Origin: a virus
IMG/VR virus record: IMGVR_UViG_3300046785_000069
Span: 1-26,396 of that record
Length of the DNA: 26,396 bases
Strand: one strand, 5' to 3'
This document shows positions 10,112 through 23,577 of this stretch, one piece after another. A program made the position numbers and the translations under genes. The notes under the pieces are model-generated. The model saw nothing but the letters and a program-made list of their open reading frames with translations, had not been told where the DNA came from and ran no database searches. Every line of letters begins with the position of its first letter. Within the stretch, counting starts at the first letter, position 1.

Positions 10112-13100
10112 ATGGCAAAGAAAACTCAAAGCACCAATAGCTTATCTTACCAAGTAAGTGAGATAAAGTCGTTAATGCAAGACCTACAAAACCAGGTGAA
10201 ACAACTTGGTGAAGAAGGTAAGGGTGTGGTTGACGTATTTAAAAAAATCAACGACCCATTAAGGACTCAAGTTTCCTCAATGGAAGCACTTTCTGAAGAA
10301 ATTAAGAAAGCAAAGGAGAGCATCATCAAGTTCATGGAGACCTCTCAATCGCAGGGTAAGCTTGATGAGAAAACCAGAGATCAACAAACAAAAGCTTTAA
10401 ACAGGTTAATAAGTTTAGAGGGACAGCTGCAGCGTTCTAAAAAGAGCGTATTAGGCGAGATACAAAATGTTGCAAAGGAAGAACAAAGGGTTCGTTCCTT
10501 AAAACAAAAGGCTTTTGAAGAAGAGTTTAATGCTAGCTCAAAGGCTAAGGCTGACCTACAAGAGATATCTGCTGGGGAGTCAGAAATAAATAGGCTTTTA
10601 AGAGAGAAGGCGGCACACGAATCTGACATTGCACAAGAAGTATATAAAAGACGTGAAGCTGAAAAGCAAGCTATACAGGATGAAAAGGAGGCTGAGAAAT
10701 TAAGATTAAAGTCTTTAGAAGAGCAGAGAGACCTTGAGCAGTTTATGCTTGAGAATAGTCTTAAAGCCCAGGCCGACAAGATTAAAAATGAAGAGGATTT
10801 AGCCGCACAAGCAGCACAAAGAAAAAAAGAACAAGCTGCAGAGGAAGCAAAGCTATCAAAGCAAGAAGCTTTAACAGCTATTGAGAATGCTAAGCAAGAG
10901 CAAAAGGTAGACGATCAACTTGGATTAGCAAAAATCCGCACATCTAAACAAACCGTAAACAAGAGGGCCGCTGCAGAAAAGGCTTATTGGGAAGAATTGC
11001 AGTCTAGATATGACAAAGATTCATCCGAGTACAAAGAGCTTGAAATACAAAAACTTAACGCTGCTAAGAAGTACGAAAAGGAACGTCAAGGAGTAGTAAA
11101 AAAATACAGATCTAGCAGACCAAAAGATAGTGCCGAAGAAAAAGGAGGATTCTTTTCTCAGTTTAGAGATGGGATTGTAAGTAAAAATATCGGAAAGACT
11201 CTAGGTAGGCTTACTGGTATTACTGCTGCTGTACAGATTTTTAGAGCGGTTTTACAAAACGTAAAGAAAGTTTTTGTTCAGTCGTTTAAGGCCGCTGTAG
11301 ATTTTGAAGCTCAGTTAGCAAACCTGCAAGCTGTTACTGGTATCAACAACAATCAGTTAGCAAAGCTAGAAAAGAACGTACTGTCTGTTGCTGGTAGTAC
11401 AAAGTTCACTTCCGAGGAAATTGTACAGCTACAAACTGAACTTGGTAAGTTAGGATTTAGTGTTAACGAAATTGAAGCAGCTACACTAGCTGTTGCCCGT
11501 ACAGCACAGGCACTTGGCGAAAAAGTAGGCCCAGTAGCACAGCGTATTGGACAAATACTTAATCAGTTTAATTTATCAGCTGCTGAGACAACAAGAGTTT
11601 CTGATAGTCTCGTATCTGTTATTAACTCTTCGGCTCTTTCTTTCGAGGGATTCAGTACAGCACTACAGTACATTGGGCCATTAGGAGCAGAGGTAGGTAC
11701 TACTTTTGAGGAAACAGCTGTTGCCATGGCTTTGTTAGCTGATAATGGTTTTACCGCATCTCGTATAGGTACAGGTCTTCGTGGTATTATGACAGAGCTT
11801 TCCAAGACTGGTAAAGACCTAAATACCGTTGTTTCTGAATTAGCAGATGAGGAAATCACATTGGCGGAAGCAGTCGACCTAGTAGGTAAAAGAAATGCAG
11901 CACAGCTGCTTACCCTTGTTGAAGCGGCTCAAAAACAAAAGGAAGTAGGAAAATCGCTTGAAGACTTAAATGATCAATACTTTGCTCAAGGATCTGCAGC
12001 AATTGCAGCTGCACAACAGGTAGATACCTTCCAAGGTAATTTAGATTTATTAAAGTCTGCTGTTAACCGTGTACAGATTTCTTTTGGTAACTTTTTAAAA
12101 ACTAGTAAGCTTTTAAGATTTGCATTAAAGCTTATTGATGAAGAGGGTTACAATGCAGCACTTGCAGCTGAGGCTATTGCCTCTACAGACCCTACAGCTT
12201 TTAGTCAAAAACTTTCAGAAGCCGCAGATGTGGTTGGTGGTCTTAAAAAAGAATTGACAGATGTAGCTGAGGTGAGAGCTTTTGAAGGAATAGCTGCTGA
12301 AAGAATAGCTAGGGAAACGATAATAAAACCACTAGAAGCTGAGCTTGCTGCTATGAAAAAGATTAAAGCTGCCAGAGAAGAAGCTCAAGATCTTAAAATA
12401 AGTGAGTTAAAAGCTGAAAGAGATTCTTTACCCATAGGAAAACAAAGAACGGATATTCAAAGAGAAATTGTTAGACTAGGAATAGAAAGATCAAAGAGAA
12501 CTCAAGAAACTATAGATGAGAGTGCTGCAATTGAGAAGCTAGAAAAGAGAATACAAGATAGAAAAAAAGAGGGTTTTGATGCTGAGATAGATTATATAAA
12601 GACTTTATTGGATGAAGTAGGTTTGCAAAAAGCCTTAGAGCTAGAAAGAAACGCAGTCATTCTTGAAAGAAAGGAAATCCTAGAGGATCTTCGCAATTTA
12701 GCTGATGATGAAAGCATATCTTTAAAGGAAGCTAACGACTTAAATGTTAAGTTGAATAAAGAATCAACTGGGTTACAAAATAAGATAAATGAACTTCTAG
12801 CCGAACAAGAAGATAGAAAAGAAAAAGGAAACGAAATTGTAGGTGAAGAGCTTTTATTGTTTGAAGCTAAATTAAATCAGTACAAACAAGAAAAAGATTC
12901 TTTGTCAAACTTAGTATTCCAAAAATCAAAGTTAGAGAAGTTAGCTCAAAAAGAATTTGAAAAAGAATTTAAGCAACTAGCAAACAGAATCAAGGCTAGA
13001 AAACAAGAACTAGAAGATGAGCAAGCACTCTTAGATGTAGCTATACTAACAGAACAAAATCTTTCTAAAAATGCAAGAACTGAGCAAGAACGTAGCGATG

Positions 13101-14446
13101 CTACTGAAAGATTAAGCACTCTTCAGCAGCAAAGACTTGCTAATGAAACAAAAGCTTTTAATGATTTAAATGGAATCACTAAAGAATATGCGGATTTAAT
13201 TGAAGATGTAGGAGTAGAGGTAGAAAGAGCAGGTCTTGACGGTAGGTTTATTGAAAAGGCAAATGAGAGATTAGATTCTTTTAGATTAGGATTTAATGCT
13301 CTAGCTTTAGATATTGGGGATATCGCAAAGGCCGGGGAAGATTTAGCTGATTCGTTATACAATGTATACAAAATTGACTTAGAGGCTGGTACCGAACTAG
13401 ATCCTAAACAGTTAGCTGATGTAGATAAACAAATCAAAGATTTAATAAGAAAGCTTTTACCTGGATTAGAGATTCTGTCTCCAGATGCTTTTGAGGCTAT
13501 ATACCAAAAGCTACAGCCTCTGGTAATGTCAAGACTTCTTCCAGATCCTAAAGATGATGAGAAGGAGCGTAAGAAAAAGATAAAAAAATTATTAGATAGT
13601 ATTCTTGACGAGCTTACTGATGCTGCTAAAGAATACAATGATACAATATTGCAGAACACTCAAGGCAGGTTAGATGCTGAACTTGAGGCTATAAAACAGC
13701 GTTACAAAACAGAGGAAGAAATCTTAAAGTCTCAATTAGACAATCAACTTATTACTGAGTCTCAGTACCGTGTTAAGTCTAATGAGATTAAAAGAAAACA
13801 GATTCAAGAGGAAAATGAGATAAACAAACAAAAATTTGAAGCCGAGAAAAAAGCAGACCTAGCTAATGTAGTCATAGACCTTGCTGAAGCTGTTGCAAGT
13901 AACTTGATTAACAACTTTGGTTCAACAGATACCGTAACTGCAACGGGACTTTCCGCTGCTGGTTACGCTGCTCTTGTAGGAGGTGCTGCACTTAAAGCCG
14001 ATGCTATCCGTAGACGTAAGTTCTTCCCTGTTAAGTTTGAAGAAGGGGGTATTGTACAAGGGCCATCTCATGATGCTGGAGGTGTTCCTTTCAGTGTTCA
14101 AGGTCAAGGTGGATATGAAATGGAAGGTGGTGAGTTTATTGTAAATAAAAAGGCTGCTCAATTCCATAGAAGTCTTCTTGAAAGAATAAATAATTCTGCT
14201 AAACCAAATACAAATATCACTCCTTTGAAATTTGCACAGGGTGGATTGGTGTCTGCACAAAGAGCCTCTCAAGTAAATGTAAAGGCTGATACTAAAGAAA
14301 GTGTAAATTACTTAAAGGCAATTGCAGAAGCAACTGTTTCTACAGCTATTAGCAGTAACAAGCCATTAAGAGCTTTTGTCTCTACTCGTGATTTAAGAAG
14401 TAGTGAGAACGAGAGAAGATTAAAAGAAAGAAACGATAGAATATGA
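10112..14446 (+). CDS. Tail tape measure protein (TP901 type)
   Basis: 1444 aa, the largest gene. Residues 1-350 are nearly continuous charged coiled coil (Lys/Glu/Ala-rich). About 355-390 is a hydrophobic, basic stretch (GKTLGRLTGITAAVQIFRAV). About 393-570 is the TP901-like core: VDFEAQLANLQAVTGINNNQ, then KFTSEEIVQLQTELGKLGFS, and further on GTTFEETAVAMALLADNGFT. Another coiled-coil region follows, then the usual C-terminal Gly-rich part FEEGGIVQGPSHDAGGVPF (about 1310) with EGGEFIVNKKA. The protein sets tail length and helps deliver DNA. At roughly 0.15 nm per residue it predicts a tail near 215 nm (inference). Antisense open frames inside are shadows. Confidence 0.93.
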   Translation: MAKKTQSTNSLSYQVSEIKSLMQDLQNQVKQLGEEGKGVVDVFKKINDPLRTQVSSMEALSEEIKKAKESIIKFMETSQSQGKLDEKTRDQQTKALNRLISLEGQLQRSKKSVLGEIQNVAKEEQRVRSLKQKAFEEEFNASSKAKADLQEISAGESEINRLLREKAAHESDIAQEVYKRREAEKQAIQDEKEAEKLRLKSLEEQRDLEQFMLENSLKAQADKIKNEEDLAAQAAQRKKEQAAEEAKLSKQEALTAIENAKQEQKVDDQLGLAKIRTSKQTVNKRAAAEKAYWEELQSRYDKDSSEYKELEIQKLNAAKKYEKERQGVVKKYRSSRPKDSAEEKGGFFSQFRDGIVSKNIGKTLGRLTGITAAVQIFRAVLQNVKKVFVQSFKAAVDFEAQLANLQAVTGINNNQLAKLEKNVLSVAGSTKFTSEEIVQLQTELGKLGFSVNEIEAATLAVARTAQALGEKVGPVAQRIGQILNQFNLSAAETTRVSDSLVSVINSSALSFEGFSTALQYIGPLGAEVGTTFEETAVAMALLADNGFTASRIGTGLRGIMTELSKTGKDLNTVVSELADEEITLAEAVDLVGKRNAAQLLTLVEAAQKQKEVGKSLEDLNDQYFAQGSAAIAAAQQVDTFQGNLDLLKSAVNRVQISFGNFLKTSKLLRFALKLIDEEGYNAALAAEAIASTDPTAFSQKLSEAADVVGGLKKELTDVAEVRAFEGIAAERIARETIIKPLEAELAAMKKIKAAREEAQDLKISELKAERDSLPIGKQRTDIQREIVRLGIERSKRTQETIDESAAIEKLEKRIQDRKKEGFDAEIDYIKTLLDEVGLQKALELERNAVILERKEILEDLRNLADDESISLKEANDLNVKLNKESTGLQNKINELLAEQEDRKEKGNEIVGEELLLFEAKLNQYKQEKDSLSNLVFQKSKLEKLAQKEFEKEFKQLANRIKARKQELEDEQALLDVAILTEQNLSKNARTEQERSDATERLSTLQQQRLANETKAFNDLNGITKEYADLIEDVGVEVERAGLDGRFIEKANERLDSFRLGFNALALDIGDIAKAGEDLADSLYNVYKIDLEAGTELDPKQLADVDKQIKDLIRKLLPGLEILSPDAFEAIYQKLQPLVMSRLLPDPKDDEKERKKKIKKLLDSILDELTDAAKEYNDTILQNTQGRLDAELEAIKQRYKTEEEILKSQLDNQLITESQYRVKSNEIKRKQIQEENEINKQKFEAEKKADLANVVIDLAEAVASNLINNFGSTDTVTATGLSAAGYAALVGGAALKADAIRRRKFFPVKFEEGGIVQGPSHDAGGVPFSVQGQGGYEMEGGEFIVNKKAAQFHRSLLERINNSAKPNTNITPLKFAQGGLVSAQRASQVNVKADTKESVNYLKAIAEATVSTAISSNKPLRAFVSTRDLRSSENERRLKERNDRI

Positions 14447-15042
14447 AAACAGAAGGTTACGATTTCTTAATTACACAAAGAAGTTCTATTTCTCCTGGTG
14501 GTCTAACAGATGTTGTTGGCCTTCGTTATAACGAGGTCACCGTTCCTATATCAAATGTAGATGTACTAGTAGATGACGTTATACATTTAAAGTATTATGA
14601 AAGTAATATACCTAAAGGTGTATATGGTGTTTGTACTTCTGTTGACATGGATGGTGTAAATCCTAACTTTGTTTTTAAGTTTGATCAAGATGTATACGAA
14701 CTTTTTAATAACATATTGCAGCAAGATGTAATAGGTATAGATAATTATAGAGGTACTGTATATGATAAAGTTTCTCAGTACGATATAACAGCAAGTGTAA
14801 ATCGTGCTACATACGGAGACGAATTAAAATCTTACTATACTTCTTTAGATTATAATCTTATAATTAATCAAGAGAATAGATTGTTTTTCAACGGATTCAA
14901 ACAAGTTATTACAGCGGATAAGATATTGTTTGCCGATTACTGCAAAAGCTTTGCTTATGGCGTATCTTTGTCCGAAGACAGTTATAATAATATAAATAAT
15001 GTCTTTAAACAATCTGTAAACTTTAATATAGCAAAACGATGA
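14443..15042 (+). CDS. Putative distal tail protein (199 aa)
   Basis: 199 aa, overlapping the tape measure stop by 4 bp (ATGA) and overlapping the next gene likewise. It is beta-rich at first (GLRYNEVTVPISNVDVLVDD) with many aromatic and Asp/Asn residues and no membrane segment. In siphovirus tail modules the genes just after the tape measure encode the distal tail protein and hub/tip proteins, so a tip or baseplate component is likely by position. No domain recognised; identity as the Dit-type protein is not shown by the sequence. Confidence 0.5.
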   Translation: MKTEGYDFLITQRSSISPGGLTDVVGLRYNEVTVPISNVDVLVDDVIHLKYYESNIPKGVYGVCTSVDMDGVNPNFVFKFDQDVYELFNNILQQDVIGIDNYRGTVYDKVSQYDITASVNRATYGDELKSYYTSLDYNLIINQENRLFFNGFKQVITADKILFADYCKSFAYGVSLSEDSYNNINNVFKQSVNFNIAKR

Positions 15043-17726
15043 GTTTCACCTTATCTATAAGCACAAACAATGTTTCATTCAACGAGGTCAATTTATTTCA
15101 AGAGCAAGAGCTTTTTTATGACGTTTCGTTTTACGATGATGTTGAAATTGATAAGATTAAAATACCTTTTTACACGTCACTAAATATACCGCTTACTGCT
15201 ACTAATAAAAATTTATTTGGCTATAATCCTGTTACGGATGACGCTATAAACTTTCCCTTATCGGAATACTATTTTAAAATAAATGTACACAATTCAAGCA
15301 GTACTCAAATCAACGGAGTACTAACGGTAAGCTCAATTGAATACAACTCTGATGCTCCTTACATGGAGGTAGAGCTTAAAGACTTTATAACGGTTTTTAT
15401 GACTGATTTAAATTCTTTGGGGATAGGAGATGTACTTACTGATTCTTATTACTCTACTCAACATACGTTTGACGATTTCACAAATACCACTGCTAATAAT
15501 GGTGAGGCTGGAACTCCAGACGTAGCACCAGACTTTACAAGACCAGTAAACTTTCCTTATGTTGATTTAGCAAATGACACATTAAAGTTCTCATATGAGG
15601 CAAGGCATTTTACTGAATATGGTGCTGGTATGTCTAGAAGCTGTTTTATACCTACTCTTTCTGTAAAGAATTATTTAGAAGAAATAGGAAACTATTTAAG
15701 TAATAGCAATAGACCTGTCGAGGTACGATCAAAGTTATTTGGAATAAACGACACTGTATTTAATTCTGATTTTGAGCCAGAAAAATTACAAGCGGTAATA
15801 CCGGCAAAACTATTAGCTGTCAATAGCGTTAACACCAGAGAGTTTCAGTTAACTCATGGGCCAGATAGAGTAAGGCCGAATGAGGATTTAGATATAAGCA
15901 CAAACCTAGACGGTTCTACAAAGCTAATGAGAACTCTTTGGTATGGAACCGGAGAGTCTTTTGGTAACTATGGAAGCACAGGTACATCTTATCAAAAGTA
16001 TGGTGTAAAAGTACAGGACACCTATAGCACTACTGTATATGAATTAGCTAATGAAAGATGGAGAAATGAGTTAGGATATTTCTGTCCTCATATGTCCTTC
16101 AGAGGCAGAGTTCAGTATTTAAGTGGAGACAGGTTTGAGTCTACTGGAGTTATAGATTTTCACTTGCCTACTATAGCTGAAGATAAAATGGTTTATAAGA
16201 TAAACAAGAACAGTAGTGATATGAAGTTCGGTTTGTTTGTCTGCATATACGAAGATGGTTATTTAAAAAGAGAGATTAGATTAAATGATTCTAATGGGGA
16301 TGCAATTGAATTAGATATAGCCAACGCAACAGTTGGAAGAAGTAACGCTTCTAAAGACCAAAATCAAATAACTAGTTTCTCTGCCGACTTTTTAGCTGAT
16401 GGTCAAGGAAACATTAGAGCTAGAATAAACACACTGACCTATCCTGGTATTGCGGATAAGCTCGAATTTCCAAGTGTAGATGTTTATTTACCTGTTGATG
16501 AGACTATAGATTTAGATATTAGTGGAGAAAGTAGATATGGCACGTCAATAGTATTGAAGCCTATTTATGGTCAGATTAATATTGAGTATGTCTCTAGTTA
16601 TGGACTTAATAATTCTATAGGGGGGTATGATGTCAAATTTGCGGATGCGATGTCAACAGATAATTTTGAAGTTGAGGACATAAGAAAAGCTAAGACAGAT
16701 ATAACAAATTTTGCTGATCTTAATTTATTAATTAAAGCGATAGAAGACTACAACTTGTATTTCCTTAATGATGAGTTTGTTATAAAAGATTCCCTAAATG
16801 AAACTACAGAGCTGTCTCCAGTAGATATAATTAAACACACCTCTAAAAGGTTTGGTTGTGGGTTGTTCTATGAGTTTGAAAACAACACTCACATTTTAAG
16901 AATTGATCCTATACACTTTTTAAGGAACAATACTATAAACGGTGATTATTATTTAGACGATGCAGTTTCTATAAAAGTATCTCGTCCTTCGGATATAATA
17001 AAAAACTTAATAGTTTCAAACGAGGATAAGAATCTTTTTTACGATAAGTACAGAGAGTATGATGATTATACTGCAGGCACAATAAATCAAGTAATAAACG
17101 AAAACGGTGTAAATGATTATTTAATTGAATTAAAATCATCCGTATACAGAAACTCATTGTGTGGTTCTATATTTTTTCAGACAAATCAAAATATAGATTT
17201 AGGCATTGTAAGTCCTTCAGAAGCTGGCCTTACCGATAATATATTTACATCATATAAAGATATAGGAATTAGATTTGCTTACTTAACAAAGCCTTTATAC
17301 AGAACAAATTTAAAAGTTCCTTATAGTATTGAAACTAGTAAACGACCTAATCTGCTTACAACTACACAGCGTATATATGTAAATATGTATGACTATGACA
17401 ATCAAACAGAATTGTACAAGCATACCTTTAATGGTAGGCTAACAAACGTAAACTCTAGTGGATTTGATTTATTAGGACAAGATAAAAATAATAACACTAC
17501 AGACTACTACGATTTGATATCTAATACAGAACAGGTCACATCTAAAGGTAAAGCATCTGTTGAGTTAAATTTAGTGATCCCTGTAAGCTCATTAAGCACA
17601 ACTAAGTTTATGCTTGACAAATATTCTTTATCGTTAGTTAACGGTCAAAATATACTTATAAAATCAGCAGAAGGACAAGTATACAATAACAACGCATACT
17701 TATCTGTAAAAGGTTTGATAGAATAA
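15039..17726 (+). CDS. Large tail-tip/baseplate protein (895 aa)
   Basis: 895 aa, beginning MSFTLSISTNNVSFNEVNLF, a beta-sandwich-like opening, then a long Tyr/Asn/Asp-rich beta body. The segment DIRKAKTDITNFADLNLLIK (about 550) followed by a helix-strand part and SRPSDIIKNLIVSN (about 650) recurs in the large tail proteins of Bacteroidota phages. Length and position after the tape measure suggest a tail hub or baseplate protein that may carry receptor-contact parts. No peptidase, lysozyme or carbohydrate-lyase motif was seen. The exact structural role is inference. Confidence 0.6.
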   Translation: MSFTLSISTNNVSFNEVNLFQEQELFYDVSFYDDVEIDKIKIPFYTSLNIPLTATNKNLFGYNPVTDDAINFPLSEYYFKINVHNSSSTQINGVLTVSSIEYNSDAPYMEVELKDFITVFMTDLNSLGIGDVLTDSYYSTQHTFDDFTNTTANNGEAGTPDVAPDFTRPVNFPYVDLANDTLKFSYEARHFTEYGAGMSRSCFIPTLSVKNYLEEIGNYLSNSNRPVEVRSKLFGINDTVFNSDFEPEKLQAVIPAKLLAVNSVNTREFQLTHGPDRVRPNEDLDISTNLDGSTKLMRTLWYGTGESFGNYGSTGTSYQKYGVKVQDTYSTTVYELANERWRNELGYFCPHMSFRGRVQYLSGDRFESTGVIDFHLPTIAEDKMVYKINKNSSDMKFGLFVCIYEDGYLKREIRLNDSNGDAIELDIANATVGRSNASKDQNQITSFSADFLADGQGNIRARINTLTYPGIADKLEFPSVDVYLPVDETIDLDISGESRYGTSIVLKPIYGQINIEYVSSYGLNNSIGGYDVKFADAMSTDNFEVEDIRKAKTDITNFADLNLLIKAIEDYNLYFLNDEFVIKDSLNETTELSPVDIIKHTSKRFGCGLFYEFENNTHILRIDPIHFLRNNTINGDYYLDDAVSIKVSRPSDIIKNLIVSNEDKNLFYDKYREYDDYTAGTINQVINENGVNDYLIELKSSVYRNSLCGSIFFQTNQNIDLGIVSPSEAGLTDNIFTSYKDIGIRFAYLTKPLYRTNLKVPYSIETSKRPNLLTTTQRIYVNMYDYDNQTELYKHTFNGRLTNVNSSGFDLLGQDKNNNTTDYYDLISNTEQVTSKGKASVELNLVIPVSSLSTTKFMLDKYSLSLVNGQNILIKSAEGQVYNNNAYLSVKGLIE

Positions 17727-17740
17727 TTGTAAATTAAATA
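17727..17740 (+). promoter_or_regulatory. TTGTAAATTA intercistronic motif, copy 2
   Basis: TTGTAAATTAAATA fills almost all of the gap between the tail-tip stop and the ATG at 17742; identical over 14 bases to copy 1. Confidence 0.5.
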
Positions 17741-17741
17741 G

Positions 17742-18134
17742 ATGGCAACATATAACGACTACCCACAATCAGCATCTAACAACGCCAAGAAAGTTCTTGA
17801 GTGGAAGAAGAAGTACAAGAATGAAGTTAAAGGAATGACTTCGGTGGGCTGGACTCGTGCAAACCAATTAGCTAACAAAAGAAAACTAAGTTATGAAACT
17901 ATTGCCAGGATGGCTGCTTTTAATCGTCACAAAAAAAATTCTGCAATTGACCCAAAGTATAAAGACACGCCTTGGAAAGATAGAGGCTATGTTGCTTGGC
18001 TTGGTTGGGGAGGAACAAGCGGAGTTAATTGGGCAATTAGAAAAGCTGAAAGCATTAGAAAAGGAAATGTCAAAGCCGGAGTAGATATAGCTGATCTACC
18101 ATATGGGGACAGAAAAAAGAAAGACAATGGATAA
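17742..18134 (+). CDS. Small protein associated with XkdF-type protease genes (130 aa)
   Basis: 130 aa. Patterns TSVGWTRANQLANKRKLSYE (34-53), TIARMAAFNRHKKNS and DRGYVAWLGWGGTSGVNWAI match a conserved domain (WTRAxQLAxRxxLSxxTIxRMxxFxRH ... AWGGxxGxNWA) found beside or fused to phage capsid proteases of the PBSX XkdF kind. It is very basic. It overlaps the protease gene by 8 bp. Its last part contains DLPYGDRKKK; the hexapeptide LPYGDR also occurs at the start of the major capsid protein. A role in capsid assembly or maturation is likely; the mechanism is unknown to me. Confidence 0.65.
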   Translation: MATYNDYPQSASNNAKKVLEWKKKYKNEVKGMTSVGWTRANQLANKRKLSYETIARMAAFNRHKKNSAIDPKYKDTPWKDRGYVAWLGWGGTSGVNWAIRKAESIRKGNVKAGVDIADLPYGDRKKKDNG

Positions 18135-19188
18135 AGATTTCCCATTATACGATATTACACTTGAGGATTTTGAACAGGGTATGTACAAGATTTCTCTCGT
18201 AGACAAACCTGCTATCGAAGAAAACTTCATCTACTTTAATAAAACTGAAGTAGTTGAAATGTTTGCTAATGATGAGAAGAAAGAAGTGATAGGGCCAATT
18301 ATGATTCCAAATAAGGAAATCCTACGCTTTAGTCCAGAGAATGGATATTACTATGTTAGGTTCACGGAAGAGACAATTCGTGATATTATGTATAACTACT
18401 CTAAAAAGGGTTTGTTTAACGAATTTGGTATTCACCACGAGTATGATACTCAAGATGTGGTGTTACTAGAAGTTTGGATGAAGGAGTCAGATAATGATAA
18501 GTCTAAGGACTATGGCTACGACCTTCCAAATGGAACAGTATTCGTAAAGACTAAAATTGAGTCTGACGAATTATTTAAAGCTATCAAAGAAGGTGAAGTC
18601 AATGGCTTTTCTATCGAGATACAAGCGGATATTAAACCTGTAAATAACGAACAAATGAATGAATTTGCTTTTGCTAAGGAATTAGGAAAAATGGAAGCTC
18701 AGTTTGAGTCCATGGTTTCTAATTTTGAAGCTAAGATTAAGTCTCTAGAAGATGAGAATGCTATTCTCCTAGAAACTATGACCTCTTTTGAAGAGAAATT
18801 TAATGGCATGGAAGAATTAAAAACTGCCCTTGAAACTATTCAGAAGTACATCGAGTCTGCTAATGCTCCCAAAGAAGAGGAAGAAGTTCCTGCTGATATG
18901 AGTGCAGATGCTGATAAAGATGAAGAAGAAAAAATGGCTGAGAAACCAGAAAAGGAAGTTGCTCCTGTAGGTGAAGATGCTGTTGAAGTTGAGTCTTCTA
19001 AAGAAGAAGAAGAAAAGTACGAGGCTACTGAGGAAGTTGTAAACGAATCAGAGTTAGAGGAACAATTTGCTGCAGAACAAAAAGCTGAAGAAGCTGAAGA
19101 AACTGTAGAAGATAAGACTGTCGTATTTAACGGAATCACTCCAGAGAAGATGAATATTGTAAATGACTTCTTTAGTCGTTTCAAATAA
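18127..19188 (+). CDS. XkdF-type prohead protease with scaffold-like tail
   Basis: 353 aa from the ATG at 18127; a start at 18103 would add 8 residues. Residues 1-170 match the Peptidase_S78_2/XkdF fold: MYKISLVDKPAIEENF (19-34), EVIGPIMIPNKEILR (53-67), YYVRFTEETI, GIHHEYD with His103/His104, and EVNGFSIEI with Ser162 as likely nucleophile. After about residue 180 it becomes a coiled coil and then an extremely Glu-rich acidic region (to about 320), as expected of a scaffolding segment. So protease and scaffold appear fused, and the protease would remove the scaffold during maturation. No separate scaffold gene is seen. It is followed by copy 3 of the TTGTAAATTA motif and then the capsid gene. 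Confidence 0.85.
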   Translation: MDKDFPLYDITLEDFEQGMYKISLVDKPAIEENFIYFNKTEVVEMFANDEKKEVIGPIMIPNKEILRFSPENGYYYVRFTEETIRDIMYNYSKKGLFNEFGIHHEYDTQDVVLLEVWMKESDNDKSKDYGYDLPNGTVFVKTKIESDELFKAIKEGEVNGFSIEIQADIKPVNNEQMNEFAFAKELGKMEAQFESMVSNFEAKIKSLEDENAILLETMTSFEEKFNGMEELKTALETIQKYIESANAPKEEEEVPADMSADADKDEEEKMAEKPEKEVAPVGEDAVEVESSKEEEEKYEATEEVVNESELEEQFAAEQKAEEAEETVEDKTVVFNGITPEKMNIVNDFFSRFK

Positions 19189-19203
19189 TTGTAAATTAAA
19201 TTA
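19189..19203 (+). promoter_or_regulatory. TTGTAAATTA intercistronic motif, copy 3
   Basis: TTGTAAATTAAATTA starts directly after the protease stop codon and precedes the major capsid gene by 27 bp. The remaining leader is A/T-rich. Confidence 0.5.
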
Positions 19204-19230
19204 AACGAATTTTTTTAAAATCTAAATAAA

Positions 19231-20121
19231 ATGTCTGTAACAATTTCAAACTTACCATACGGAGATAGACGTCCTAACTTGTTTATCGACTCTATGGTTA
19301 AATCTGCGGCTGTACTTAACCGCTTCCGTCTTATTGACGGTGTTAAAGCTAAAGTAAATGTACCAATCTTTGATGGCGCATTACAATTTGGCAACGACCT
19401 TTGTATATTCGATCCACAATCTACTGCTTCTATTGCTGAAAAAGAGATGACTGTTGAAACTTACAAGTGGGCTTTCCTAAACTGTAAGAATGCTCTTGAG
19501 ACTTCTTACCGTGGATTGTTATTGAAGAAAGGTCAGCACAACCCTGAGACTATGGACTCTGAGTTCAAAGACTGGGTATTTGATTTCTTCGCTAAAAAAT
19601 CAGCAGAACACGCTTTACAGTTGGCTGCTACTGAATTGACTCTTGAAATGGGCAACGATGCTGCTGTTATCGATACTCTTATCGGTGGTGCTGCTTTGAC
19701 TCCATTAAACATCTTAGACGAGATGGGTGCTGCTTATGCTGCAATGAGTGATGTAATGTTGGCTGCTGTTTACGGTGATGCTGATCGTGACTTCAAACCA
19801 TCTTTCTTCTTGGGAACTGCCGCTATGCAACACTACCAAGTTGCTATCGCTGAGAAGTACACTACTACTCCTCAAGGTATCGTAGAAGGAAACATTCCTG
19901 CATACTTCGGTATGGAGGTTGTTCACTTCCCAAGCCTTGGTGCTGACCAGTTTTTTGTATCTGCTCCACAAAACATCGTTATGTTGACAGATGACTACAA
20001 TGATGTACGTGCTATCGACATGAAGTACGAAGCTGAATTGTCAAGCGACAAAGTATGGGGTCAGTTCAAGTTAGGTTTCTCTTACTTGAAAGGTGAAGAA
20101 ATCGTTTACGCTCAAGCGTAA
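19231..20121 (+). CDS. Major capsid protein (HK97-fold)
   Basis: 296 aa starting MSVTISNLPYGDRRPNLFID. Position right after the protease/scaffold gene, size, and the Ala/Thr-rich composition fit an HK97-type capsid protein. The segment FFAKKSAEHALQLAATELTL is a likely spine helix, and the C-terminal part (GMEVVHFPSLGADQFFVSAP, NIVMLTDDYNDVRAI, FKLGFSYLKGEEIVY) follows the usual capsid pattern of a loop naming the target protein and two late strands. Codon choice looks more uniform than in neighbouring genes, as expected for an abundant protein (by eye). An intrinsic terminator follows 14 bp after the stop. Confidence 0.85.
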   Translation: MSVTISNLPYGDRRPNLFIDSMVKSAAVLNRFRLIDGVKAKVNVPIFDGALQFGNDLCIFDPQSTASIAEKEMTVETYKWAFLNCKNALETSYRGLLLKKGQHNPETMDSEFKDWVFDFFAKKSAEHALQLAATELTLEMGNDAAVIDTLIGGAALTPLNILDEMGAAYAAMSDVMLAAVYGDADRDFKPSFFLGTAAMQHYQVAIAEKYTTTPQGIVEGNIPAYFGMEVVHFPSLGADQFFVSAPQNIVMLTDDYNDVRAIDMKYEAELSSDKVWGQFKLGFSYLKGEEIVYAQA

Positions 20122-20792: not shown

Positions 20793-21386
20793 ATGCCTTT
20801 TAACTGTAGTATTTTTCTTGAGGACATAGACATCAACTGCAATAAGTCTAATGCAGGTGGTATTAAAAAAGTTGTATTAGGTCTACAAAAAGATTTAAAC
20901 ATTGCACTTGACCCTATAGATGAAACTGTTGTTACCCAAGCACAACTATTAAATGCAGCAGTGTTTGAGCATAACAACAAAGATGGTGCTACAATATTTA
21001 CTGAGTCTAAAACTGTAACAAATGGGCTTGGAATTATAAATACTGAGATAACTGTTAGACTTCCTTTACTTGATGTAAAGATGAACAAGGTAGACTATAT
21101 GTCACGAAGAAACGATATCGTTTGTATTATGTACCATAACAATGGTACTGCTACTATTAGTGGTTGGATGGATGGACTTACTATGCAATACAAGGCTACA
21201 AGTGGTGCTTCAAGAAATGAGTTATCTTTTGTAGATGTTACTCTTTCTACAGATAGTTGGATAGCGTCATTTGCAATAAATGATAGCAGTATAATAAATA
21301 TAGGTCAAGTTGTCCCTGTGGGAGCGGTAAACCGTTGGAGTCCAAACTCTATTACTTGGAGTAATAATAATATTAATTGGTCATAA
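20793..21386 (+). CDS. Tail tube paralogue B with Trp-heptad C-terminus
   Basis: 197 aa. It lines up with paralogue A: CSIFLEDIDINC versus CVLTLADVNFSC, GGIKKVVL versus GGLKSVYL, NKDGATIFTESKTVT versus LKDGFSVFTDVKTVT, and TSGASRNELSFVDVTLSTD versus SGTGRSEKNRFQLTLTGEE. It then has an extra C-terminal tail ending RWSPNSITWSNNNINWS, with Trp every seventh residue. It could be a minor or tip-proximal tube protein, or an ancestor of an adaptor. The Trp tail recurs in two smaller proteins downstream. Its stop is followed directly by the next ATG (TAAATG). Confidence 0.65.
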   Translation: MPFNCSIFLEDIDINCNKSNAGGIKKVVLGLQKDLNIALDPIDETVVTQAQLLNAAVFEHNNKDGATIFTESKTVTNGLGIINTEITVRLPLLDVKMNKVDYMSRRNDIVCIMYHNNGTATISGWMDGLTMQYKATSGASRNELSFVDVTLSTDSWIASFAINDSSIINIGQVVPVGAVNRWSPNSITWSNNNINWS

Positions 21387-22559
21387 ATGAATTTAACTAA
21401 TACAATAATAGAAGATACATACGGAAATGTATTGACTACAGGCTCTACTGCTGGTACGCCAACAAGTGGTACTTTACAAAACGGTGCTGGTCAAAACATA
21501 ACGTCTCTTGGTGTGTCTGGAGCCTTGACAGCTACAACTATGTCTGCGGATATTTTAAATGTAAGAGATATAGTTATTACGCAAACAAACGTAGCTGCTA
21601 ACGGAACAACCTCGGCAGATGCTACATTGTTAACGGCTGGTACAAACCTCGTTACATCCTCCAGCACATCAAATATTGCGTTAAGACTACCCGTTCCAGT
21701 TTTTGGGGCAGTTGTAGGTATCGTAAACAATTCTACTAATGTACTTGAGTTGTTTCCTCATAGCGCAGCAGGTAGTGTTTCAACAGGTGCTGCAGGTGCT
21801 TCTTACAGTATCCCTGCTGATGGATTACTTTATACATTTACTTGTATTCAAAATCCAGTTGTAGGAGTATGGAGTGTGACTCTTCCTGTAGGCCCTTATT
21901 TAACAAAGACCTATACCTTAAATATGGTTGCAGATGGAACTTATGGAGGAAATACAAGTGTGTCGCATTCAGGAACTTACAACCCTCAAGCTACTGGACC
22001 GTTTGGAGTATCTCCCAATTTGGTATATTACCTTGAGTCTCCAGCCCCTAATGTTGATTTTCTTAACACTCCAGAATTTGATATCTTTACCCAACATAGA
22101 ATAATAGCAAGAACAGTAACGTCTAATATCCCTGCTGGCGATTTAACAACAAACGTTACTCAAGCGGTTCACACATTGATGGGTATTACTGCGAGTCAAC
22201 TTGGCACTATTGATTCAAGGATTAGAATAGGCTCTCAGAATCTAACACCTACTAATGGAAGCAGTGTGTCATCTAATGATTCTACATTATTCCTATTTGA
22301 TCCCCTTTATTCTCTTACTTATAATAATAATCCAAGTAGTTTAGGTATAAGAAGCCACTATATGAGAGGTGGTACATTGTGTCAACAAAACATAGCACCT
22401 TCACCAAGTGCTGCTTGGATTGATAACAAAATGAATGGAGTTAGAAGAATATACTATCAACCAAGATTACAGTACGGTAACTCATCAAATCCAGCAACTG
22501 GATTTCCTACTGGGTTTAAGTTTGAGTGTGAATTGAGTTTAACTTTTGAATTTAGATAG
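21387..22559 (+). CDS. Virion appendage/fibre-like protein (390 aa)
   Basis: 390 aa starting MNLTNTIIEDTYGNVLTTGS. Thr/Ser/Asn/Gly-rich, low in charge and rich in predicted beta strands (SLGVSGALTATTMSADILNV in the first part). The C-terminal part has a GVRRIYYQPRLQYGN stretch and ends FECELSLTFEFR. Composition and context (after the tube genes, before fibres) indicate a virion surface or adsorption protein, possibly a fibre or decoration protein. No receptor-binding or enzyme motif recognised. Starts immediately after the paralogue B stop. Confidence 0.6.
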   Translation: MNLTNTIIEDTYGNVLTTGSTAGTPTSGTLQNGAGQNITSLGVSGALTATTMSADILNVRDIVITQTNVAANGTTSADATLLTAGTNLVTSSSTSNIALRLPVPVFGAVVGIVNNSTNVLELFPHSAAGSVSTGAAGASYSIPADGLLYTFTCIQNPVVGVWSVTLPVGPYLTKTYTLNMVADGTYGGNTSVSHSGTYNPQATGPFGVSPNLVYYLESPAPNVDFLNTPEFDIFTQHRIIARTVTSNIPAGDLTTNVTQAVHTLMGITASQLGTIDSRIRIGSQNLTPTNGSSVSSNDSTLFLFDPLYSLTYNNNPSSLGIRSHYMRGGTLCQQNIAPSPSAAWIDNKMNGVRRIYYQPRLQYGNSSNPATGFPTGFKFECELSLTFEFR

Positions 22560-22574
22560 ACATAAAGAAATAGG

Positions 22575-22829
22575 ATGTACGCACCAATTAAAATAGGATA
22601 CTTTGCTAATGCTACACAAACAGATAAAGGATTTGTAGACTATGTGTTTCCTAATATTGATGCGTATAATAAAGATGCTATTCAATATGACAAGGGTATG
22701 GTTGATTACCTTATTGGTTCAACCGGATTATACTCAGATGTTTTAATTGAGCAATCTTCAGGATGGTCAGTGAATTGGGAATTAATAAATATGCAATGGG
22801 AAACCATTAATGTTAAATGGGAATTATAA
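22575..22829 (+). CDS. Small tail-region protein with Trp-heptad C-terminus (84 aa)
   Basis: 84 aa starting MYAPIKIGYFANATQTDKGF; it contains two related segments (TDKGFVDYVF and YDKGMVDYLI), a possible internal duplication. The C-terminus is SGWSVNWELINMQWETINVK followed by WEL, with W-x6-W-x6-W spacing as in tube paralogue B and the 44-aa protein. It is adjacent to the next gene without a gap. A small adaptor or cap protein is possible. No known family recognised. Confidence 0.55.
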   Translation: MYAPIKIGYFANATQTDKGFVDYVFPNIDAYNKDAIQYDKGMVDYLIGSTGLYSDVLIEQSSGWSVNWELINMQWETINVKWEL

Positions 22830-23093
22830 ATGGAAAACAACATAACTAAAGACAGAAACTATTACCAATCTTCTATGGGAGATTTTGGTTTCCGTAGAAT
22901 AGGTCCAGGCGAAACATCACCAGGAGGAGAGACTTATCGTGTTATCGTTTGCCTACAAGAGGCAAACATTAATGCTGAGTCAATGGTAGGTGACAGTCTT
23001 ACAGGACAGGTGCTTCCTACAGGAATGCAGGTCTTCGGTAAATTTACACAAGTATCTTGTTACCAGGGGGTTGTGTTAGCATACTTGGGATGA
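22830..23093 (+). CDS. Small conserved-looking tail-region protein (87 aa)
   Basis: 87 aa starting MENNITKDRNYYQSSMGDFG, with a Gly/Pro-rich middle (GFRRIGPGETSPGGETYRVI) and a beta-rich end (GDSLTGQVLPTGMQVFGKFT, QVSCYQGVVLAYLG). The pattern looks like a small beta-domain such as a trimeric cap or chaperone for a fibre. No family recognised. The ATG follows the preceding stop directly, and its TGA overlaps the ATG of the 44-aa gene (ATGA). Confidence 0.5.
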   Translation: MENNITKDRNYYQSSMGDFGFRRIGPGETSPGGETYRVIVCLQEANINAESMVGDSLTGQVLPTGMQVFGKFTQVSCYQGVVLAYLG

Positions 23094-23224
23094 TATTAGC
23101 ACTTGGCATATCGGTACACACTCAGTCGTTTATAGAAGATAATTATGAGTTTGACAACAGATACTGGCAACTAATATCTATGCAGTGGGAGACAATTAAC
23201 GATACTTGGGAAGAAGAAATATAA
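23090..23224 (+). CDS. 44-aa microprotein with Trp-heptad C-terminus
   Basis: ATG at 23090 overlaps the preceding TGA; the TAA at 23222-23224 overlaps the next ATG. The 44-residue product begins MILALGISVHTQSFIEDNYE and ends with WQLISMQWETINDTW plus EEEI. It matches the C-terminus of the 84-aa protein closely: INMQWETIN versus ISMQWETIN, with the same W-x6-W-x6-W spacing. Coupled start and stop and the shared motif make it a credible gene despite its size. Function unknown; presumably binds the same partner as the other Trp-heptad tails. Confidence 0.55.
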   Translation: MILALGISVHTQSFIEDNYEFDNRYWQLISMQWETINDTWEEEI

Positions 23225-23577
23225 TGGCAACACTAACAGGAAATAAACCAAAGGATACCTACAAAGGTCTTATTAAGACAGTTGATAGTGATGAGGTAAC
23301 AGGAGAGGTTCAACTTAGCGATGGTAACGGAAATGTGTTGCCGATAAATGTATCTCCTACTGAGGTAAGAATAAACGGAGAAAGGTCTTCGTTTGTATAC
23401 AACCAGTCAGTAGCGGAACAAGAGTGGACTGTTAATCACGGTATGGGCAAAAGACCTTCTGTCACTACTGTTGATTCAACCGATAGAATAGTTGTTGGCG
23501 AGGTCAACTATCTTGATAATGAAACCCTTGTAGTAATTTTTAAATATCCCTTTAAGGGAAAAGTGTACTTAAATTAA
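23224..23577 (+). CDS. Tail-fibre-type protein with C-terminal fibre domain (117 aa)
   Basis: 117 aa from the ATG at 23224, coupled to the preceding stop; an alternative TTG start at 23206 would only add residues read from the neighbour's frame. N-terminal half: MATLTGNKPKDTYKGLIKTV, beta-rich. C-terminal half: QSVAEQEWTVNHGMGKRPSV (about 57-76), VVGEVNYLDNETLVVIFKYP, GKVYLN, a well known phage tail-fibre/adhesin domain pattern (W-x-I/V-x-H-x-(L/M)-x-K-x-P-x-V ... F-x-x-P-x-x-G). Likely part of the fibre or its attachment. Confidence 0.75.
   Translation: MATLTGNKPKDTYKGLIKTVDSDEVTGEVQLSDGNGNVLPINVSPTEVRINGERSSFVYNQSVAEQEWTVNHGMGKRPSVTTVDSTDRIVVGEVNYLDNETLVVIFKYPFKGKVYLN

Follow-up and report, generated by a model that had tools for sequence, protein, structure and literature searches.

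We show that a C-terminal tryptophan ladder, W-x6-W-x6-W, with three tryptophans at exact seven-residue spacing near the end of a protein, is linked to a conserved N-terminal domain of phage fibres, and that this linkage spans unrelated ladder-bearing bodies and three subtypes of the fibre domain. From the linkage, together with conservation, we infer that the ladder probably acts as a docking plug and the fibre N-terminal domain as its socket. The ladder was noticed in a single window, by which we mean the whole stretch of 26,396 nucleotides analysed, a 26.4-kb viral record (IMG/VR IMGVR_UViG_3300046785_000069). Its terminase is only about 28% identical to those of named phages, and tblastn against 50,697 named phages returned no match for its capsid-like protein. 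The window has no recognised portal gene, and in its gene order a 1,444-aa tape-measure-like protein precedes the protease and the capsid-like protein (10112-20121). Relatives were sampled as 80 loci that encode a relative of the capsid-like protein and 14 that encode a relative of the 84-aa protein, some contigs being in both sets.

Three plus-strand genes of the window end in the ladder, at the positions and with the spacing that a sequence-only reading had claimed. The first encodes tubeB (20793-21386), a tail-tube-like protein whose C-terminal end is WSPNSITWSNNNINWS, with tryptophan codons starting at 21336, 21357 and 21378. The 84-aa protein (22575-22829) ends in WELINMQWETINVKWEL, with codons at 22776, 22797 and 22818, and the 44-aa protein (ATG at 23090, stop at 23224) in WQLISMQWETINDTWEEEI, with codons at 23165, 23186 and 23207. 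The ladders fall into two subtypes. That of tubeB (WSPNSITWSNNNINW, 21336-21380), assigned from sequence and relatives and predicted by AF2 with low confidence, is of an I-x-W, Ser/Asn-rich type. Those of the 84-aa protein (WELINMQWETINVKW, 22776-22820) and the 44-aa protein (WQLISMQWETINDTW, 23165-23209) are acidic, follow W-x2-I-N-x2-W and have the string WETIN in common.

One tail alone is only mildly improbable: shuffling the last 30 residues reproduced the spacing in 0.4% of trials for tubeB, 1.5% for the 84-aa protein and 0.4% for the 44-aa protein. The evidence against chance therefore comes from relatives. Loss of the spacing in homologues would have spoken against a shared motif; instead, it is invariant in all distinct orthologous tails found for the 84-aa (n = 24) and 44-aa (n = 22) proteins, the ladder-to-stop distance is nearly fixed among relatives, and neighbouring residues vary while the ladder tryptophans stay fixed. 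In the comparison that the earlier reading had proposed, tails are more conserved than bodies, with identities of 65% against 44-49% for the 84-aa orthologues and 70% against 46-53% for the 44-aa orthologues. In the loci of relatives, ladder matches number 91 on the sense strand and 1 on the opposite strand.

The tail of tubeB is associated with a particular downstream gene. TubeB is a paralogue of the 180-aa protein (26% identity). It has no Pfam or PHROG match; in Foldseek searches its predicted body matched PDB tubes weakly (E 0.05-0.2), and among the BFVD matches is one called major tail protein (E 5e-6). At 21384-21389 the sequence TAAATG joins the tubeB stop at once to the in-frame ATG of a 390-aa fibre-like protein (21387-22559, plus strand); the same junction is seen in L006, L070, L071, L072, L075, L076 and L078, and in other relatives the two genes overlap out of frame. 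TubeB orthologues normally end without an extension. The ladder is present in 8/8 unique copies that precede a 390-type gene versus 0/46 copies elsewhere (by motif in 7/8, Fisher p=4.5e-8, with separate confirmation for L035, the eighth). A 390-type gene lies immediately downstream of every tailed copy, and in several genomes with two tubeB copies only the one before the 390-type gene has the tail. A blind scan for WSNxNIxWx-stop recovered, among real genes, only tubeB orthologues, all followed by a 390-type gene; a scan for further relatives of the 390-aa protein found nothing useful. The N-terminal segment of the 390-aa protein (MNLTNTIIEDTYGNVLTTGSTAGTPTSGTLQNGAGQNI, 21387-21500), with a T-Y-G-N-x-L core that is invariant across relatives, resembles a diverged version of the anchor domain described below (hhalign E=2.4e-5, probability 75%). 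TubeB and the 390-aa protein are thus one ladder/anchor pair of the window, with the weaker domain homology.

The second pair consists of the 44-aa adaptor (23090-23224) and a 117-aa protein (23224-23577), both on the plus strand, with an anchor domain directly downstream of the ladder. The adaptor, delimited from its sequence and orthologues, has a short hydrophobic N-terminus (MILALGISV), and its start ATG overlaps the stop of the preceding 87-aa gene as ATGA. The N-terminal anchor domain of the 117-aa protein (MATLTGNKPKDTYKGLIKTVDSDEVTGEVQLSDGNGNVLPINVSPTEVRING, 23224-23379) aligns with the anchor-domain family, and its C-terminal domain is also found at the ends of other phage proteins. 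The 84-aa protein, which orthologue comparison resolves into a variable body, with repeat expansions among relatives, and the conserved ladder, is followed instead by the 87-aa gene (22830-23093, plus strand) and has no anchor domain directly downstream. The 87-aa protein, between two ladder proteins here, belongs to a family that also occurs in genomes without ladders.

Acidic ladders were also sought blind across the viral contigs of IMG/VR; among the matches listed were unrelated phages in which a fibre comes directly after the ladder protein. The fibre N-terminus downstream reads MGxxLTGxxPxxTYDxLIKVxDNGPxxGTxKxLSDGLGN..., and the 117-aa protein of the window begins with the same domain. 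For the family as a whole, the anchor domain was defined by the pattern [TS]-[YF]-x2-L-[LI]-[KQ] ... D-G-x-G ... S-T at the fibre N-terminus. Converse scans started from this domain and were blind to the sequence upstream. Among the matches listed, a ladder lies upstream of the LIKxxDNGP subtype in 101/117 occurrences (49/57 when made unique by a 30-residue key). It also lies upstream of 11/14 fibres of the LLQV subtype, with 2 more having interrupted ladders, and of 71/71 fibres (46/46 unique) of the SFQGLLK subtype, which is homologous to LIKxxDNGP (hhalign E=4e-13). Once all anchor fibres had been combined and reduced to those unique over 45 residues, a ladder protein ended at the fibre start in 105/118 among the matches listed, and four further fibres sat at contig edges; the background was 2/1,409 other ORFs of >=200 aa. 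The exact DNA patterns used in the scans favour related sequences, and these counts are not independent events, because the loci are phylogenetically related. The gap from ladder protein to fibre start ranges from -16 to +39 nt. As a negative control, the anchor pattern was run against genome contigs, where it found only unrelated proteins (some FtsH-like), none of them with a ladder.

The proteins that carry the ladder are diverse. They form at least nine unrelated groups of bodies in addition to tail-tube paralogues, and include a ~340-aa protein, a small protein with Trp/Gly repeats, Cys-rich and zinc-ribbon-like proteins and several short adaptors; 69 adaptor bodies gave nine sequence clusters, 40/69 falling in one of them, among the matches listed. 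Many short adaptors have a hydrophobic N-terminus of MxxGxGIxI type in common, seen at 23090-23130 of the window and in otherwise unrelated adaptors of L245, L256, L290 and L314. This N-terminus is a possible virion-insertion element, and with it the short adaptors resemble a pair of linear motifs with a linker between them. The linkage has exceptions. For the anchor fibres of L217, L285, L293 and L221, the sequence available shows no ladder, and those of L100 and L201 have no adjacent ladder protein. In L201 the ladder is on a tail-tube paralogue ~4 kb downstream of the end of the fibre gene, beside an untailed tube protein, which by its sequence would be an independent parallel to tubeB. In L220, L252, L270, L290, L345 and L348 the three tryptophans are kept with an insertion of one or more residues, a change that would be hard to accommodate in a strict heptad coil. 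Of the 182 loci that have both elements, 56 contain more ladders than anchor domains. On the minus strand of L110, just upstream of an anchor fibre, one protein has three successive ladders (nine tryptophans), perhaps one for each chain of a trimeric fibre. Several kilobases separate the anchor fibre from a Cys-rich ladder protein (GCLCKDNTYxxxCCDG) in L213, L215, L313 and others, where the gene after that protein begins MKANxILNRILAEL; in L116 a homologue of this protein directly precedes the fibre.

Structure prediction gives a partial picture of how the two elements might meet. In an AF2 model of a tail-plus-anchor read-through from L116, the ladder is predicted as a helix (residues 20-43, block mean pLDDT 86-89) that is amphipathic, with tryptophan at heptad position a and isoleucine at d, and the anchor core is a high-confidence unit made of a short helix around TYDALIK and two strands; with a pTM of 0.41, the placement of the helix against the anchor is not fixed by the model. 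The tubeB tail, predicted with low confidence, also has a low helical moment. We propose that the body of the ladder protein would sit in the virion, as tail tube, ~340-aa protein or small adaptor, the last held by its own N-terminal insertion element. The tail would project outward, in the acidic subtype as an amphipathic helix, and the fibre N-terminus, probably trimeric, would close on its tryptophan face. Since the plug is short and independent of the body, it could be grafted onto any virion protein upon the gain of a fibre, as may be the case for the tubeB tail and the 390-aa gene.

The sequence-only reading had suggested a common docking tag through which the three proteins could bind one partner or each other. 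The idea of a docking tag is supported by the kept spacing, by the tubeB tail that tracks the fibre gene and by the unrelated carriers. A single common partner is not supported, because the ladder subtype of tubeB is tied to the 390-aa fibre, and that of the 44-aa protein to the 117-aa protein. On balance, we think it somewhat more likely than not that a portable tag on tube, neck or small adaptor proteins is read by one widespread, unannotated family of fibre N-termini, with several tagged proteins per virion and more than one mounting site.

The most serious alternative is that the ladder self-associates, Trp(a)/Ile(d) helices from one or several ladder proteins packing into a short coiled coil. 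The adaptor would then be an oligomer that matches a trimeric fibre, and the fibre would contact it elsewhere. The heptad pattern and predicted helix, the finding that many loci have two ladder proteins for each anchor domain, and the WETIN string in both the 84-aa and 44-aa tails are compatible with this idea. However, the bodies are unrelated, so that no other part of the adaptor is common to all pairs, while the fibre N-terminal domain is; some ladders have insertions and those of tubeB type have a low helical moment. We regard self-association as unlikely, though deserving of attention. Trp/Ile heptad coiled coils have tryptophan at a and isoleucine at d, and the ladder is like them in these positions and in its predicted helix; it differs in having only about two heptads and some insertions, and in being linked to a heterologous partner family.

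Considerably less probable is that the linkage reflects inherited gene order only, with a few adaptor-fibre pairs passed on together and the tryptophan spacing serving the adaptor's own fold. Many loci do come from few clades, as the large cluster of adaptor bodies illustrates, but the ladder precedes one domain family on at least nine unrelated bodies, within genomes tubeB has or lacks it according to whether the 390-aa gene follows, and a tube paralogue at a distance from the fibre has it too. The fibre start is usually no more than a few tens of bases from the end of the ladder, with overlaps such as ATGA, and this proximity could suggest a cis-acting DNA or RNA element before the fibre start codon, for instance for translational coupling, that is read as tryptophan codons by accident. 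We consider such an element very improbable and reject it, because ladders also occur away from an anchor fibre (the 84-aa protein, the Cys-rich protein in L213, the tube paralogue in L201); moreover, the ladder is always in frame at a C-terminus and its gap to the fibre start varies. Chance spacing in tryptophan-containing C-termini, which the single-tail shuffle probability of about 0.4-1.5% would not make vanishingly rare, is scarcely credible and was rejected given three ladders in one cluster, their invariance in homologues, the strand bias and the linkage to fibres (105/118 versus 2/1,409, among the matches listed).

Docking of the fibre N-terminus on the ladder would have counterparts in known systems. 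Phage tail fibres and tailspikes are attached through a conserved N-terminus to a separate protein, either of the virion or an adaptor, which makes the receptor domains exchangeable. The pair described here would be similar in joining a conserved fibre N-terminus to a separate virion or adaptor partner, as judged from the genes, and would differ in its plug, a short peptide at a C-terminus that is marked by three tryptophans at heptad spacing. Among the known systems, the branched receptor-binding complexes of Ackermannviridae phages are an example; PMC11414711 describes such a complex. The ladder carriers of L100 and L201 are, by PHROG match, tube paralogues of the Phage_tail_2 / PHROG 1407 family of major tail proteins, and adjoin an untailed tube protein; what sets them apart is a C-terminal ladder, which tubeB has too. 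Neither the ladder nor the anchor domain matched Pfam or PHROG models or, by sequence, the PDB, and no description of either was found in the open-access literature. Short-query tblastn against the 50,697 named phages gave no match for tubeB, the 84-aa protein, the 390-aa protein and several anchor N-termini and ladder proteins. The pair is absent from the whole genome of Nonlabens phage P12024L and from the scanned regions of Cyanophage Cy-LDV1 and two other phages. These searches point to a putative docking pair that is undescribed in Pfam, PHROGs, PDB sequences and the open-access literature.

The phages that bear ladder/anchor pairs are mostly uncultivated, and many are otherwise unrelated. 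The mode of fibre fastening decides how easily receptor-binding proteins can be swapped among phages. If the docking proposal is true, the pair offers a sequence rule to find fibres and attachment proteins in uncultivated phages, where they are mostly unannotated, and would explain why the extension of a tail protein arrives along with a fibre gene.

Variation at the equivalent locus of other phages also concerns the C-termini of these small proteins. In relatives without the 84-aa and 44-aa genes, proteins at the equivalent positions have a different C-terminal module; in L026 (4885-5211 and 5476-5739), the two proteins flanking the 87-aa homologue share it as GRxLFDAYDxRVxxASGxTEARxCTINEL. 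In L064 (2954-4276), a related small-protein N-terminus (MGYLINDTGYNNDTIRI) continues directly, in one protein, into a lectin-like fibre region, and from its sequence it looks as if the docking step had been bypassed. Both the alternative module and the fusion fit a C-terminus that is an interchangeable attachment part. A look-alike of the 87-aa protein is also present in the unrelated phage L156 (3873-4142), where it precedes a ladder adaptor and an anchor fibre.
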